Positions 7,562-51,847 of a stretch of DNA of 64,000 nt are shown piece after piece (position 1 is the first letter of the stretch; each line of letters opens with the position of its first letter). The translations under genes were made by a program, and so were the position numbers. Source of the DNA: Chryseobacterium sp. POL2 (GTDB lineage: Bacteria; Bacteroidota; Bacteroidia; Flavobacteriales; Weeksellaceae); assembly GCF_011058315.1 (NCBI RefSeq), contig NZ_CP049298.1, positions 2,542,001 through 2,606,000 on the forward strand, in the 5' to 3' direction. Under the pieces are notes generated by a model that worked only from the letters and a program-made list of their open reading frames with translations, was not told the origin of the DNA and searched no databases.

Positions 7562-10054
7562 ATGATTCCAGATAATAATAAAAAAACAACATATCTTGAA
7601 GATGAGGTTAAAACCAAGTCTTTTAGTTTGTTTGATCCTATGCATTTTGTACATAGGTTACTTAAAAATTGGTATTGGTTTGTAATTCTAGGACTTATAG
7701 GTTATGCTATTGCTTTCTTGTATAGTAAATATTATGCGCAAAGAGTCTATGAGTCGAGTTTGTCGCTGAGTATTTCTAATAATACAGCAAGTTATTTTAC
7801 ACCCAATCAATCTATTAATTTTATTTGGGGACAAGGGGGCAATCAAGATGGGGTCTATATTAAAAAGATTTTACTTTCCAGAAGTCTTAACGAATATTTG
7901 GTTAACAAGCTGGATCTTTATACCAATTACACCACAAAAGGGTTAATAAAGCAGACTTACTTGGACCAAGATGATTCTCCAGTGATTTTAAAATTGGACA
8001 AAAGTCATGCTCAACAAGTTAATTATCAGATTACACTTATCCCAAAAGGAAATGATAAATATGAAGTTGTGCTTCCAGAAGATGGCAAGTCAACAACGCT
8101 TTATAATTATCAAACAGAAAGTTATGAAACGATACCCGATTATCCACAGCCTCAAAATAAAATTATAGGTATTGATGAATGGTATACCTCTCCGAATTTA
8201 AGATTTAAGCTAGAAAAAAATCCGAATCCTTCTTCGATTAAATTCGATAATATTAATATAACATTATTGGCTATTAATACCGCAGTTAATGGTATTGTAT
8301 CAACACTTTCTGTACGTTTTGATCAAGAATTGCCATCTATTATGATTATCAGCAAAAAAGGATATAATCTTAATGGGACCGTTAGGTTTCTAAATATTGC
8401 TGTCGATGAGCTTATCAAAAAAAGACTAGAAGATACGAATACCGTTGACAAAAACACATTAGAATACCTAGCTAAAAATATCGATAAAGTAAGAAAAAAA
8501 TTAGACTCTAGCGCAGCCTATCTTAACCATATTAAAGTTAGTAACAGACTATATGATTTTAAAGGCTTAGATTCTAAAACCTTTGACAAACTTAAAGAAA
8601 TAGAAACGAAAAAAGCAGAGCTTTTATCCAAAGTTAAAAATCTTGATCAAGTCCGAAATGTTGTTAACTCGAACAATATTGAGAAAATTATTAACATCAG
8701 CAGTGCAGGGATAGAAGACGGCGTATTTTCTGCTACGGTTTCTGAGCTCAAAGCACTTTATGCAAAGCGTAGAGAAATGGCGAAAATCTACACGCCCAAT
8801 TCTGAGCCAATGCGTGAAATCAACAGATTGATTAACGAAGCAAAACTGAATTCAGTCGGTGGTTTACGTCAATATTATGCCACATTCGATCAACAAATGA
8901 ATGATCTAGATGTAGAATTAAATAGTCTTGAAGGAAGTCTAGCAACTTTGCCAGAAAAGCAACGTTTATATCTGGATGCCGAAAGAGGTTACAACATTAT
9001 AGAATCAACATACAATTCACTTTTGACAGAGCAAGCAAAAGCCCAAATGAGAATTGTATCAAATAAAAGTAACTTAACAATAATTGATAAAGCGAAAAAT
9101 CTAGGACAAGGGCCTATCGCTCCCAATGTCGAAATCGTGAAAAGCGCGATTATCGGTGGATTATTGATTATTCCGTTATTGCTCATTGCATTGTCAGAAG
9201 TTTTAGACAATCGCGTAAGAAATATCAAAGAAGTTGTAGGTGTAACCAAAATGCCGTTGTTAGGTGTTATTGGAAAAAATACAGATGATAGCAATCTTAG
9301 CGTTTTGGACCGTCCAAAATCTTCTATTGCAGAAGCATTCCGAGGCGTACGCGCCAATCTTAAGTTTTTATTCGATGAGGCCAAATCCAGCAAAGTTATC
9401 CTGGTAACATCCTCCATTAGTGGAGAAGGGAAAACTTATAACTCGATGAATTTGGCAACTGTCTTAGCCATAAGTGGCAAAAAAACAATATTGCTGGGAA
9501 TGGACCTTAGAAAACCAAAAATATTTGGAGATTTCAAAATCAATAATAAAAGTGGTATTTCCAATTATTTAACGGGAGAATCATCTTTAGACCAAATTGT
9601 TAATAAGACCCAGATTGCAAGTTTGGATGTTATCACTTCTGGACCTATTCCGCCTAATCCTTCGGAGCTTTTATTAAGTGAGAAAAATCAAAAATTATTG
9701 GAGGAACTTAAAAAACAGTATGAATATATTGTCATAGACTCTCCACCTGTGGGACTCGTTGCTGATGCGTTTGAGTTGATGAAGCATGCCGATGCAACCA
9801 TATACGTGGTAAGACACGAGTATACAGAAAAGTATATGCTGAATCTTATCAAAGAAAAAGTTGCAAAGAAAGAAGTTGCCCATATAGGACTTATTTATAA
9901 CGACTACGAAGCCAAACAAGGTTATGGCTACGGTTACGGCTATGGTTACGGCTACGGTTATGGCTACGGTTATTTCGAGGAAGATGTTGATTATAAAGAA
10001 CCGAAAATTATTAAAATTAGGAACCAAATGAGAAGAATCTTTAAAAGAGGATAA
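7562..10054 (+). CDS. Wzc-like polysaccharide co-polymerase and tyrosine autokinase
   Basis: An 830-residue inner-membrane protein. A Wzz-type region has a first helix near residues 37-57 and a second near 525-545, separated by a long periplasmic coiled-coil segment. The cytoplasmic BY-kinase domain carries Walker A 'SGEGKTYNSMN' (about 618-628), Walker A' 'LLGMDLRKP' (about 643) and Walker B 'YIVIDSPPVG' (about 722). The C-terminal tyrosine cluster is nine Gly-Tyr pairs (787-804). Autophosphorylation of such tails controls polymer length and export. This is the first of two such kinases in the window; the second is at 52675. Confidence 0.92.
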   Translation: MIPDNNKKTTYLEDEVKTKSFSLFDPMHFVHRLLKNWYWFVILGLIGYAIAFLYSKYYAQRVYESSLSLSISNNTASYFTPNQSINFIWGQGGNQDGVYIKKILLSRSLNEYLVNKLDLYTNYTTKGLIKQTYLDQDDSPVILKLDKSHAQQVNYQITLIPKGNDKYEVVLPEDGKSTTLYNYQTESYETIPDYPQPQNKIIGIDEWYTSPNLRFKLEKNPNPSSIKFDNINITLLAINTAVNGIVSTLSVRFDQELPSIMIISKKGYNLNGTVRFLNIAVDELIKKRLEDTNTVDKNTLEYLAKNIDKVRKKLDSSAAYLNHIKVSNRLYDFKGLDSKTFDKLKEIETKKAELLSKVKNLDQVRNVVNSNNIEKIINISSAGIEDGVFSATVSELKALYAKRREMAKIYTPNSEPMREINRLINEAKLNSVGGLRQYYATFDQQMNDLDVELNSLEGSLATLPEKQRLYLDAERGYNIIESTYNSLLTEQAKAQMRIVSNKSNLTIIDKAKNLGQGPIAPNVEIVKSAIIGGLLIIPLLLIALSEVLDNRVRNIKEVVGVTKMPLLGVIGKNTDDSNLSVLDRPKSSIAEAFRGVRANLKFLFDEAKSSKVILVTSSISGEGKTYNSMNLATVLAISGKKTILLGMDLRKPKIFGDFKINNKSGISNYLTGESSLDQIVNKTQIASLDVITSGPIPPNPSELLLSEKNQKLLEELKKQYEYIVIDSPPVGLVADAFELMKHADATIYVVRHEYTEKYMLNLIKEKVAKKEVAHIGLIYNDYEAKQGYGYGYGYGYGYGYGYGYFEEDVDYKEPKIIKIRNQMRRIFKRG
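9920..9973 (+). repeat. In-frame Gly-Tyr codon repeat (9 units)
   Basis: Nine consecutive GGY-TAY codon pairs encode (Gly-Tyr)9 in the kinase tail. The third codon positions alternate irregularly between T and C, so the DNA is not a perfect 6-mer tandem but is close enough for slippage. Unit-number changes would stay in frame and alter the number of phosphorylatable tyrosines. Confidence 0.9.
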
Positions 10055-45386: not shown

Positions 45387-45458
45387 CTTTGCGCTCTTTG
45401 CGTTAAAAATTAAACAAATAAAAATCTAATATCTGATGTCTAACATCTAATATCTAAA
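45387..45458 (+). repeat. CTTTGCG pair and heptamer array between paaD and paaH
   Basis: CTTTGCG occurs at 45387-45393 and 45396-45402. Then five exactly in-register heptamers run from 45424 to 45458: ATCTAAT, ATCTGAT, GTCTAAC, ATCTAAT, ATCTAAA. The paaH ATG is 2 nt after the last unit. Confidence 0.7.
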
Positions 45459-45460
45459 GA

Positions 45461-46618
45461 ATGAAAATAGGAATTGTAGGAAGTGGTGCTATGGGAAGCG
45501 GAATTGCGCAAGTTATTGCAAGTGCAGGTAACCAGGTTTCTCTTTATGATAGCAATCCCCTTGCATTAGAAAAAGCAGGTGCCAATCTTGAAGCGACTTT
45601 CCAAAAGCTAGCCCAAAAAGGCAAAATGTCTTATGAAGAGGCTGGCATTTATTTTAATAATATCCGTTTGGTTAATGAGCTGAAAGATTTGGCGAATTCC
45701 GAACTTATTATTGAAGCCATTATCGAAGATCTTGAGATTAAAAAAGAGTTGTTTCAAAAATTAGAAGCTTTGGTAAGTCAGGATTGTATCTTGGCGAGTA
45801 ATACCTCTTCTTTATCCATGGCTTCTATAGCGGCATCTTGCCAGAATCCTCGTCGTGTGATTGGGATTCATTTTTTTAATCCAGCACCTTTGATGGCTTT
45901 GGTCGAAATTATCCCGGCTGTGCAAACGGACTCTGATTTGGTTTTAAAAACGAAAGAATTAGTCGAAACTTGGAAAAAACTGCCTGCAATAGCGAAAGAC
46001 ACGCCTGGTTTTATTGTCAACCGTGTAGCCAGACCTTTCTACGGCGAAGCAATCCGAATCTTGGAAGAAGGCGTTGCGGATTGTGCGACGATCGATTTTG
46101 CAATGACCAGTCTTGGAGGATTCAGGATGGGACCTTTTCAGTTGATGGATTTTATTGGGCACGATGTTAATTATCGTGTAACCGAAAGTGTTTTCAAAGA
46201 ATTTTTCTATGATCCAAAATTCAAACCTTCATTTACTCAAAAACGTTTGTTTGAAGCTGGTTTTTATGGAAGAAAATCGGGACGTGGCTTTTATGACTAT
46301 TCGGAAAATGCCATTCAGCCACAGCCTACTACAGATTCTGCTTTATTGGAAAGTATCTTTAAAAGAATTCTTGTGATGTTGATGAACGAAGCGGCCGATG
46401 CTTATTATCTGAATATTGCTTCGGTAAAAGATATCGATATAGCGATGACCAAAGGTGTTAATTATCCCAAAGGTCTTTTGGCTTGGGCAGACGAATTTGG
46501 TTTAGAAAACTTAGAAAAAGAATTGGATGCTTTGTATAATTTATACCACGAAGACCGTTACCGATGCAGTCCAGTTATCCGTCGTTTGGTAAAAGAAAAC
46601 AAAAATTTTTATAATTAA
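45461..46618 (+). CDS. paaH: 3-hydroxyacyl-CoA dehydrogenase PaaH
   Basis: A 385-residue NAD-dependent dehydrogenase that would oxidise 3-hydroxyadipyl-CoA to 3-oxoadipyl-CoA. The Rossmann motif is 'GIVGSGAMGSGIAQVIA' (about 3-19), the catalytic His lies in 'GIHFFNPAPLMALVEI', and the helical dimerisation domain follows ('DTPGFIVNRVARPFYGEA'). It is shorter than the two-domain E. coli PaaH (475), as in many other bacteria. Confidence 0.92.
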   Translation: MKIGIVGSGAMGSGIAQVIASAGNQVSLYDSNPLALEKAGANLEATFQKLAQKGKMSYEEAGIYFNNIRLVNELKDLANSELIIEAIIEDLEIKKELFQKLEALVSQDCILASNTSSLSMASIAASCQNPRRVIGIHFFNPAPLMALVEIIPAVQTDSDLVLKTKELVETWKKLPAIAKDTPGFIVNRVARPFYGEAIRILEEGVADCATIDFAMTSLGGFRMGPFQLMDFIGHDVNYRVTESVFKEFFYDPKFKPSFTQKRLFEAGFYGRKSGRGFYDYSENAIQPQPTTDSALLESIFKRILVMLMNEAADAYYLNIASVKDIDIAMTKGVNYPKGLLAWADEFGLENLEKELDALYNLYHEDRYRCSPVIRRLVKENKNFYN

Positions 46619-50020: not shown

Positions 50021-50099
50021 GGCAGCTATTTCCGTCCTCCGTTCCCGCTTTTTTGTTCCGCTTTGCTACACAAAAAGAGCTCCACTCAGGCCGGGCTGC
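50021..50099 (+). repeat. Dispersed hairpin repeat, copy B (between paaZ and the hydratase)
   Basis: It begins GGCAGCTATTTCCGTCCTCC and ends with CTCAGGCCGGGCTGC. Arms CTTTTTTG (50048-50055) and CAAAAAG (50071-50077) enclose a short loop. The same ends occur in copy A, about 7.5 kb away in the same orientation. It fills most of the 122-nt gap. Confidence 0.8.
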
Positions 50100-50135
50100 A
50101 AAAGTTGTCAGTCAATTAAAAATTCAAAATAAATT

Positions 50136-50894
50136 ATGGAAGCATACGTAAAATCAAATATAGAAAACGGCATAGGGACAATCGAGTTTTTCCATCCACA
50201 AAGCAACTCAATGCCAGGAAGCCAACTTAGAAGTTTGGCTGAGGAAATTGACAATTTAGGAAAAGATAAAGAGGTCAACGTCATTGTTTTAAAAAGCTTT
50301 GGTGAAAAGGCTTTCTGCGCAGGTGCATCTTTTGATGAGTTAATCTCAATCAAAGATTTCGAAACAGGGAAAGCATTTTTCTCAGGATTCTCCAATGTTA
50401 TCAATGCGATGCGAAAATCACCAAAGCTGATTATCGCAAGGATTCATGGTAAAGCCGTAGGTGGTGGCGTTGGTATTGCCTGCGCTGCGGACTATACCTT
50501 TGCTACAGAAAATGCCGCGGTTAAGCTCAGCGAATTAGCAGTCGGGATTGGCCCTTTCGTCATCGGTCCTGTTGTAGAAAAGAAAATCGGAACGGCCGCT
50601 TTCGCACAATTGGCAATCAATGCCACTGAGTTTTATTCGGCGGAGTGGGCGCGCGAGAAAAATATGTTCCAAGACGTGTACGAAACAACGGAAGAAATGG
50701 ATGCCGAAATTGAAATTCTAGCAAACAAATTAGCGAAGTCTAATCCCCAAGCCATGTTCCAACTAAAAGAAATCTTCTGGAAAGGCACAGAACATTGGGA
50801 TCAGCTCTTGACGGAACGTGCTGCTGTTAGCGGACAACTGGTATTGTCAGCGTTTACGGTGAATGCGATTAATCAGTTTAAAAGTAAGAGTTAG
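50136..50894 (+). CDS. Enoyl-CoA hydratase/isomerase (PaaF/PaaG-like)
   Basis: A 252-residue crotonase-fold enzyme. The oxyanion-hole motifs are 'KAFCAGASFDELISI' (about 60-74) and 'HGKAVGGGVGIACAADYTFAT' (about 105-124, quoted in part). The cluster needs two crotonases: PaaG for the epoxide-to-oxepin step and PaaF for hydration. Only this one is present, and I cannot tell which role it has. Its stop codon marks the start of a 20-unit heptamer array. Confidence 0.85.
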   Translation: MEAYVKSNIENGIGTIEFFHPQSNSMPGSQLRSLAEEIDNLGKDKEVNVIVLKSFGEKAFCAGASFDELISIKDFETGKAFFSGFSNVINAMRKSPKLIIARIHGKAVGGGVGIACAADYTFATENAAVKLSELAVGIGPFVIGPVVEKKIGTAAFAQLAINATEFYSAEWAREKNMFQDVYETTEEMDAEIEILANKLAKSNPQAMFQLKEIFWKGTEHWDQLLTERAAVSGQLVLSAFTVNAINQFKSKS

Positions 50895-51033
50895 GGATTG
50901 GAGACTAGGGACTGGGGACTAGAGATTGGAGACGGGAGATTGGGGACTGGAGACTAGGGATTGGAGACGGGAGATTGGAGATTGGAGACTAGGGACTGGA
51001 GACTAGAGATTGGAGATTGGAGATTGGAGATTG
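50894..51033. repeat. Twenty-unit in-register heptanucleotide array
   Basis: The array begins on the G of the TAG stop of the hydratase gene and has 20 consecutive 7-mers of consensus GRGAYTR (variants GAGATTG, GAGACTA, GGGACTG, GGGATTG, GAGACGG) without a single insertion or deletion. Its reverse complement gives RTCTCYA-type units sharing the RTCT core with the arrays inside the paa operon. From 51034 to 51226 I see no gene and no clear promoter. Confidence 0.9.
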
Positions 51034-51226
51034 GGGCGTGTGTTTGTGGACACTGCTGGATATCCGAGTCTATAAAAAAATATGTTAAAAATTCTTGGGT
51101 GAGATATTGCGGAATCATGCGTATGGGAGGTGCTTGAGGTGGCATGGGAAATGAGGGATATGAAAAATTATTAGTTTATATTCGCGAAAAAATTCTTACT
51201 TTCGTCAAATAATTAAGAAATAAACT

Positions 51227-51847
51227 ATGAAAAGAGTTGTAGGAATACTTTTTTTGTTTTGTATAGGAATGTTGTCAGCCCAAAGTTATAAAATGGGGGT
51301 CACAGGGAATGTTCATAGAAGTAGTATTGTAAACATTCATGATGTTTCTAAGCCTTCCTGGGGCGGCGGCGTTGGCGTTTTTGCTCAATTTGCTTTGGTG
51401 GAGAATGATGTTTTTGACTCTGCCTGGCTTTATTTAATGCCTCAGTTGGAGTTTAGTATGCAAGGAGAAAATGCAGAACCTGAGCAGGGTAAGCAGCAAT
51501 TTCCTAATCATTATATCGGCTTGCCTATTTATATCAAATACTTTTTTCATAAAGGTAATATGAAGCGTGACGTGTTTCTTATAGCGGGTCCACGTTTGGA
51601 GTATCTTGTGTCGCATGATCGCAAAGGCCCAGAAGTTTATCCTATGTTTGTTGATCAAGAAAAGAAGATTAATAGTTTTGGATTTGGATTGTCAGTAGGA
51701 GCAGGTTTGAAACTTTCCGACAATATGGAAGCTTTTATCCGTTTTGACAGAGGCTTCAGCAAAATTTATCCAGACTATACCCATAAGTCTAATACTTATA
51801 ATCGATTATTAGGTATCGGCGTTAATTATTATATTAAAACTGAATAA
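51227..51847 (+). CDS. Outer-membrane beta-barrel protein (PorT-like family)
   Basis: A 206-residue exported protein with signal peptide 'KRVVGILFLFCIGMLSAQ'. Strand-rich segments ('YKMGVTGNVHRSS', 'NHYIGLPIYIKYFF', 'FLIAGPRLEYLVSHD', 'FGFGLSVGAGLKLSDNMEAFIRFDRG') fit the OMP_b-brl_2/PorT-like barrels of Bacteroidota. It is 24 nt upstream of the second wza-like gene and is probably part of that locus. A direct role in polysaccharide export is only inferred from position. Confidence 0.75.
   Translation: MKRVVGILFLFCIGMLSAQSYKMGVTGNVHRSSIVNIHDVSKPSWGGGVGVFAQFALVENDVFDSAWLYLMPQLEFSMQGENAEPEQGKQQFPNHYIGLPIYIKYFFHKGNMKRDVFLIAGPRLEYLVSHDRKGPEVYPMFVDQEKKINSFGFGLSVGAGLKLSDNMEAFIRFDRGFSKIYPDYTHKSNTYNRLLGIGVNYYIKTE

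Follow-up and report, generated by a model that had tools for sequence, protein, structure and literature searches.

A heptanucleotide array at a stop codon in Chryseobacterium sp. POL2 and the direction of such arrays relative to genes

Introduction

How did twenty heptamers come to stand in perfect register on the stop codon of an enoyl-CoA hydratase gene, and does the array serve that gene? The question was raised by a 64,000-nt stretch of the chromosome of Chryseobacterium sp. POL2 (NZ_CP049298.1, positions 2,542,001 to 2,606,000; hereafter the window), in which the first-pass annotation had read the array as the possible 3′ region of the paa operon or as a slippage locus. The features concerned, in window coordinates, are as follows.

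50136..50894, plus strand: gene of an enoyl-CoA hydratase/isomerase (PF00378), 252 aa, upstream of the array
50892..50894, plus strand: stop codon (TAG) of the hydratase gene; the array begins on its third base
50894..51033, plus strand: heptad array of 20 units in register, 18 of 20 reading GRGAYTR; the G-richer strand is the plus strand, which is the sense strand of the hydratase gene
50883..51162, no strand: stretch without detected homology to the sampled contigs of the sister species; it holds the array and lies between two homologous blocks found on different contigs of that species
51227..51847, plus strand: gene of an outer-membrane beta-barrel protein (PF13568), the first gene downstream; a polysaccharide export gene (PF02563) is next

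Heptamer repeats have been described in other bacteria. In the parts of Rehm et al. (2015; PMC4692102) drawn on throughout this paper, GGGAATC repeats are reported for Xanthomonas and GGGGA(C/T)T repeats for Nostoc PCC 7120. For these repeats the ORF on the 5′ side is the closer neighbour irrespective of its orientation, and overlap with stop codons occurs; 70 and 75 convergent pairs are reported for them, and the class is linked to G-quadruplexes with its function left open. MacGregor (2015; PMC4679880, likewise used in part) describes TAACTGA repeats in Beggiatoaceae, cyanobacteria and five Bacteroidetes, and, in Elizabethkingia anophelis, assemblages of heptamers. Mrazek et al. (2007) reported heptanucleotide long simple sequence repeats, with no strand polarity described where that study is cited in the portions of PMC4679880 and PMC4692102 used here, and three heptanucleotide STRR repeats of Calothrix are cited in PMC4692102. 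A literature search, made mostly among non-subscription papers and not aimed at quadruplex-free polarity, found none naming the words described below as repeats of this family.

Materials and methods

The POL2 genome (G000) was compared with its sister species (G001) and with the further relatives G132 (genus g21, which its size within the family suggests to be Chryseobacterium) and G009. The forward strand of an array was defined as the strand with more G than C. The pool used for strand polarity comprised 155 intergenic heptad arrays from the POL2 genome, G001, G132, G009, 30 loci of the host's family and 80 loci from named genomes (the named set); its G001 part includes 14 stretches picked for ATGAATT arrays, and 29 of the 30 family loci come from genus g21. 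Left out of the pool were 48 arrays inside predicted ORFs and the arrays without an ORF on both sides. Genes in the polarity counts are mechanical ORFs of at least 100 codons, and several of the sets were sampled by a G-rich pattern.

Results

Structure of the array

On re-reading, the run of 20 heptamers without an indel at 50894-51033, with base 1 on the last base of the TAG, proved exact. The formula first given for it, GRGAYTR x20 with substitutions at three of seven positions, described 18 of the 20 units; units 6 and 11 read GAGACGG, so that a fourth position varies as well. The period-7 score of the array was 38, compared with a maximum of 12 in 100 first-order Markov sequences of 64 kb each, which excludes chance as its origin. 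Tandem 7-nt units this far beyond chance fall under the broad definition of a heptanucleotide simple sequence repeat, and the array is clearly a member of that class, a known kind. Moreover, an assembly artefact would be an unlikely source, given the single 3.24-Mb contig, the non-identical units and the other loci that carry this unit with mostly unrelated flanks.

Higher-order repeats of 35 nt and 49 nt were detected at the array by TRF, and the order of units repeated at lags of five (p = 0.02) and seven (p = 0.007) units when ten lags were compared with shuffled order. These multi-unit copies and unit-order lags indicated growth by groups of units as well; the early suggestion of a slippage locus agrees with this, since slippage-type growth fits multi-unit duplications. 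The array is single, with no paired partner array. It follows the stop codon, with homology ahead of the next gene restarting 129 nt past it. The remark that a 7-nt period does not match the helical repeat was incomplete, as three units make 21 bp, about two turns. A promoter scan gave three candidates against a mean of 4.4 in shuffles, that is, none above shuffles; three terminator-like sites were found, none of them inside the array; and the two Rfam matches were both below their gathering scores, neither lying within the array.

The same place in the sister species

G001 is 83% identical at the hydratase gene, and there too the aldehyde dehydrogenase gene precedes it; downstream, unrelated sequence comes first and then a peptidase-like gene (a name read from its translation). 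The 450 nt after the hydratase gene in G001 contained no heptad array and no direct repeat of 20 nt or longer. The proposal of a conserved role as paa operon 3′ region was therefore not sustained, because the same gene pair in G001 is followed by sequence without a heptad array.

Homology to G001 ends at genome position 2592882 (window 50882) and restarts at 2593163 (window 51163) on another contig. In G001 a ribosomal L31-like gene (L31 being a reading of the translation) adjoins the outer-membrane gene, and no heptad array was found in the intergenic region upstream of the outer-membrane gene. As a separate observation, the same G001 region carries a 93-nt tandem repeat of about four copies (L042, 886-1238). 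In the POL2 genome the L31-like gene is located 53 kb from the outer-membrane gene, beside the array at 2646226 (gene region 2646519), so that arrays stand at both edges of a rearranged block holding polysaccharide genes. At the array at genome position 2618858, synteny is kept, yet G001 has no heptad array there; consequently, the arrays at the edges are not assignable as cause or effect of the rearrangement.

Presence and absence were also compared at one locus of genus g21 (query positions 61-142 being the array). Eight genomes picked with the array matched through or into it, and all 22 genomes picked without GRGAYTR x4 had a best match starting at, or no more than 13 nt from, the gene side of the array (match starts at query positions 130-143).

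Other copies in the genome and variation of the unit

The unit recurs elsewhere in the genome, where the first-pass annotation had proposed to search for it. A search for GRGAYTR x3 returned 67 forward and 7 reverse matches in the POL2 genome and none with the reversed control, and the matches group into eight loci (genome positions 1205708, 1228394, 2592894, which is the window array, 2618858, 2631042, 2633006, 2639299 and 2646226). Such a reversed-pattern control is not a fair one in the family-wide scan, where GGGATTA arrays also match the reversed pattern. The flanks of the eight loci are mostly unrelated to one another. GC skew of the sampled stretches placed the origin at about 2.19 Mb and the terminus at about 0.45 Mb, and the G-richer strand is the leading strand at all eight loci, whereas the Xanthomonas repeats are without strand preference in the part of PMC4692102 used; with six of the eight loci within 54 kb of each other, this placement is weak evidence.

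Among 106 units, positions 1, 3, 4 and 6 were conserved at 92-99%, and positions 2, 5 and 7 varied almost only by transitions, near-evenly at positions 5 and 7 and with 68 A to 36 G at position 2. Positions 5 and 7 were linked (odds ratio 5.9, p = 6e-5, 104 units), as expected if the units descend from a few founder units. Most simply, the three polymorphic positions are a few old transitions that were reshuffled and spread by duplications. A GRGAYTR signature common to all phyla was rejected, because the units of other phyla vary elsewhere outside the core (A at position 1, C at position 7), indicating that the near-even transition pattern belongs to this genome. A heptad phase running across all intergenic DNA of this genome was rejected as well: the lag-7 excess of 8.1 per mille is close to the lag-8 excess of 8.0, and the arrays are thus discrete.

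An RNA hairpin was considered as the cause of the R/Y/R positions, since the motif YURG self-pairs through wobble and seven of the eight arrays had a negative z against dinucleotide shuffles. When the transitions were moved to random positions, at least 85% of the controls folded at least as stably in five of the eight arrays, including the window array (-20.0 vs. a control mean of -24.2), and in the remaining three arrays only 6%, 9% and 23% of the controls did so. The arrays are therefore not consistently tuned for folding, and the hairpin was rejected.

At genome positions 1205605-1205842, a space between two genes of a polysaccharide locus holds two convergent G-rich heptad arrays. The left array appears to overlap the part of its gene predicted to encode the N-terminus, and the gene beside the right array takes its TAG stop from that array.

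Constant period and changing word

Period 7 accounted for 17 of 30 tandem arrays, and periods 2-6 for none, in a 1.378-Mb sample of the POL2 genome made up of 58 segments, some of them picked for holding arrays. The corresponding figures were 8 of 21 in G001 (398 kb, two contigs having been picked for orthologous genes), 14 of 19 in G132 (400 kb, with two of 20 stretches picked for known arrays) and only 3 of 8 in G009 (400 kb). Heptanucleotides form the largest class of tandem repeat in this genome and in the three sampled relatives, and the class is found in many phyla.

The word itself does not follow the period. GRGAYTR x3 had no match in G001; there, ATGAATT x3 had 146 matches, on at least 10 contigs among the matches listed, and ATGAATT x3 had none in the POL2 genome. 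The initial reading that unit length is more constant than sequence was thus borne out at the level of two species of the genus, both with period 7. Across 320 genomes of the host's family, GRGAYTR x4 occurred in 43, this genome included, and in the other genomes the places read mostly GGGATTA or GAGATTA among the matches listed. In named genomes, the pattern GAGACTR(GRGAYTR)3 gave at least 118 stretches, of which 80 were taken as loci; the matches listed came from Chloroflexota, Cyanobacteria, Vibrionaceae, Bacteroidota, Planctomycetota, Methylococcaceae, Clostridium and others. In 591 kb of these named loci, 115 of 145 arrays had period 7, and 40 of the 115 were without two adjoining exact units of the pattern. 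A species-specific word stands at many unlinked places while the period stays 7.

Several loci of G001, including one on contig C9, are intergenic composites of an ATGAATT array, a short linker and a second heptad array. In several of them the linker reads like TAnnTTTG, which we take to be the Bacteroidetes -7 promoter motif.

Direction of heptad arrays relative to genes

In the pool of 155 arrays, a predicted gene was located no more than 25 nt from the forward 5′ end 75 times and from the 3′ end 18 times (67 vs. 18 of 147 once one orthologous position is counted once). Within this distance the 5′ side adjoined a stop in 49 of the 155 and a start in 26, and the 3′ side a stop in 11 and a start in 7; most of the nine g21 arrays immediately preceding a start codon represent a single orthologous locus. 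The near-gene position met most often in the pool is at a stop codon, as in the window array. By set, the 5′ end was the nearer one in 24/28 arrays of G001, 9/11 of G132, 1/2 of G009, 31/32 of the family loci and 45/68 of the named set; the arrays of the POL2 genome alone showed no positional bias (6/13).

The contribution of start codons is removed between convergent genes, where the 5′ end prevailed by 14 to 1 within 25 nt; there it was merely nearer in 20 of 31 (p = 0.15) and in none of four in the POL2 genome. Between divergent genes, the 5′ end was nearer in 11 of 16, and the count within 25 nt was 0 vs. 1. Neighbouring arrays of opposite orientation were convergent in 44 cases and divergent in 3, with 34 of the 44 and all three coming from the named set; 12 pairs had equal orientation. 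Convergence held for opposite pairs inside ORFs or more than 60 nt from the predicted genes of the locus (18 vs. 1), and likewise for pairs with at least three differences between their words (18 vs. 1). In addition, arrays without any GG kept the polarity (31 vs. 8), indicating that G-quadruplexes are not needed for it, and pairs without GGG in either arm were convergent by 23 to 2. In arrays able to form a canonical quadruplex the count within 25 nt was 17 vs. 0.

Arrays with periods other than multiples of 7 had a weak 5′ excess (15 vs. 7 within 25 nt; 17 vs. 13 by nearness), so the polarity is not claimable as confined to heptads. Ordinary gene-flanking windows lean the same way in at most about 62%: starts by 60-61% in three of four sets and stops by 57-62% in three of four sets, with no lean at the stops of the POL2 genome (216 vs. 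231) or at the starts of the named set (95 vs. 92). Background base skew was rejected as the cause, being too weak. Together, these counts suggest a preferred orientation of heptad arrays with respect to genes.

The window holds a further array that agrees with this rule, its G-richer strand being the minus strand with the 5′ end at the gene; it is below the score threshold and was left out of the polarity counts.

45424..45457, minus strand: weak array of about five ATCTAAT-type heptads, the second in this window; it stops 3 nt short of the ATG of the ORF at 45461-46618

Discussion

Relation to known heptamer repeats

The unit had been called different from the cyanobacterial heptamers. This holds in part: 14 of 20 units have GAG, and the five that read GGGACTG or GGGATTG are the Nostoc units GGGGACT and GGGGATT rotated. 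The unit of the quadruplex-forming repeats of Rehm et al. (2015) is GGGGA(C/T)T or GGGANTN. The Calothrix STRR1 word, CCCCA(A/G)T, gives a rotation of GGGAYTG when reverse-complemented; the present repeats differ from those of Calothrix in belonging to another phylum and in their GAG units, which that word lacks. Compared with the Nostoc and Xanthomonas repeats as treated in PMC4692102, unit position 2 often has A instead of G here, so that no canonical quadruplex results, and the window array is single where those repeats are paired; like their overlap with stop codons, it starts at the last base of one, on the sense strand. The present arrays resemble the TAACTGA repeats in being intergenic heptamers in Bacteroidetes and missing from the close relatives compared in the portion of PMC4679880 used. 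They differ in word, and the copies in the Beggiatoaceae genome of that study lie mostly just upstream of start codons, with translational regulation proposed there.

Polarity has been published for quadruplex-forming repeats; here it extends to words without GG and to pairs of unlike words. These arrays and head-to-head pairs remove the quadruplex and the hairpin as necessary causes. The polarity of such arrays points to how the repeats are made. A step that is always 7 nt, a word particular to the species and a constant direction form a testable pattern.

Origin of the window array

On balance, we favour the reading that the window array is a lineage-specific heptanucleotide repeat, grown by 7-nt duplication next to a stop codon and without conserved paa function. 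The array would have arisen in this lineage at the junction of two gene blocks and may have grown by repeated duplication of 7-nt units and unit groups, through polymerase slippage or unequal exchange. Leftward growth would have been stopped by selection on the coding sequence, with the TAG of the array itself now acting as the stop codon, and the array would carry no conserved function for the paa genes. Plain slippage leaves the period of 7, the presence of one word at many unlinked loci and the strand polarity without account. The leading-strand placement of the G-richer strand at 8/8 loci and the low share of period 7 in G009 (3/8) were also counted against this reading.

The alternative that survives best, and which we still consider unlikely, starts from a break or gap in intergenic DNA. 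Templated synthesis in repeated 7-nt steps would lengthen the 3′ end there, and the lengthened end would then be joined to the opposite one, the joining step being a proposed part only. Each unit would be copied from the preceding one, with errors; the G-richer strand would be the growing one, its 5′ end remaining at the gene, and extensions from two ends would meet head to head. Stated for heptad arrays at large, this tentative proposal holds that they are written by strand-polar 7-nt extension at gene edges, with the word inherited by species and not by place, and without need for G-quadruplexes, complementary arms, Ku or a recognisable RVT_1. One rule would then cover stops and starts alike, and the proposal accords with the 5′ excess within 25 nt before and after deduplication (75 vs. 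18 and 67 vs. 18), with its persistence between convergent genes (14 vs. 1), with the convergence of opposite neighbours (44 vs. 3), of unlike-word pairs and of pairs in ORFs or away from genes (18 vs. 1 each), and with the position of the window array between two blocks that are not adjacent in G001. Against it, unit uniformity showed no gradient along the arrays (33 vs. 29 of 105, 43 being equal), and a telomere-like age gradient was rejected on the same counts. The 6/13 of the POL2 genome, its 0/4 between convergent genes, the overall 20/31 by nearness there and the weak 5′ excess at other periods also stand against it. Furthermore, no candidate enzyme emerged among Y1_Tnp, Ku and RVT_1. 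As generators, Ku was rejected because it is absent from G000, G001 and G237, all of which have heptad arrays; the RVT_1 reverse transcriptase because eight of nine genomes, G000 included, gave no match; and Y1_Tnp, present in G000 and G001, because it is absent from G237, which has GRGAYTR arrays, and does not track the arrays in eight genomes.

Selection at the RNA level, by which G-rich transcripts would be tolerated only after stops and C-rich ones only before starts, the array possibly acting as a 3′ or 5′ untranslated element, appears improbable to us. Arrays near stops are indeed mostly G-rich in sense and those near starts mostly C-rich, and the weak lean of ordinary gene flanks goes the same way. 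That lean is far weaker than the polarity of the arrays, however, and is absent at the stops of this genome and at the starts of the named set; the polarity persists in opposite pairs away from genes (18 vs. 1), and G001 has no array at the same gene.

A G-quadruplex element of the sort suggested for the heptamers of Nostoc and Xanthomonas is, in our view, very improbable. Five of the 20 window units are the Nostoc unit, and polarity is complete (17 vs. 0) in arrays capable of a canonical quadruplex. The window array, judged by its letters, would nevertheless fall outside the quadruplex-forming subclass of Rehm et al. (2015), which has four intact G tracts: it has no canonical G3N1-7 pattern, with a G4Hunter score of 0.95, though it does hold 15 overlapping two-tier G2 patterns. 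Moreover, the quadruplex option left the RNA fold energy of the array unchanged, and position and polarity hold without any GG (31 vs. 8).

Carriage of the array between places by a mobile or REP-linked element has an equally slight chance: the arrays at genome positions 1228394, 2639299 and 2646226 adjoin REP-like palindromes, with a right flank common to 2639299 and 2646226 and a left flank common to 1228394 and 2646226, and three ATGAATT arrays of G001 (L360, L364 and contig C9) have common flanks, but by eye the window array and four other loci are without such a flank and the remaining inspected ATGAATT arrays of G001 have unrelated ones. No REP-like palindrome was seen beside the window array, which thus falls outside the REP/RAYT definition.

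Minor observations

The REP-like palindromes are of the TTCGACAAGCTCAG / CTGAGCTTGTCGAA type at genome positions 1228340-1228600 and 2646180-2646390, the arrays there being 1.4 Mb apart. Elsewhere in the window, a tandem repeat of period 22 lies at 549-625, periods 22 and 23 being the commonest after 7 in the sampled part of this genome. A weak Rfam match to the Flavo-1 RNA (25.7 bits vs. a gathering score of 42) is located at window 50025-50101 on the minus strand, in the gap between the dehydrogenase and hydratase genes. Finally, a period-12 repeat, GGTTATGGCTAC, was observed at window 9920-9973, and a similar repeat occurs in the sister species.
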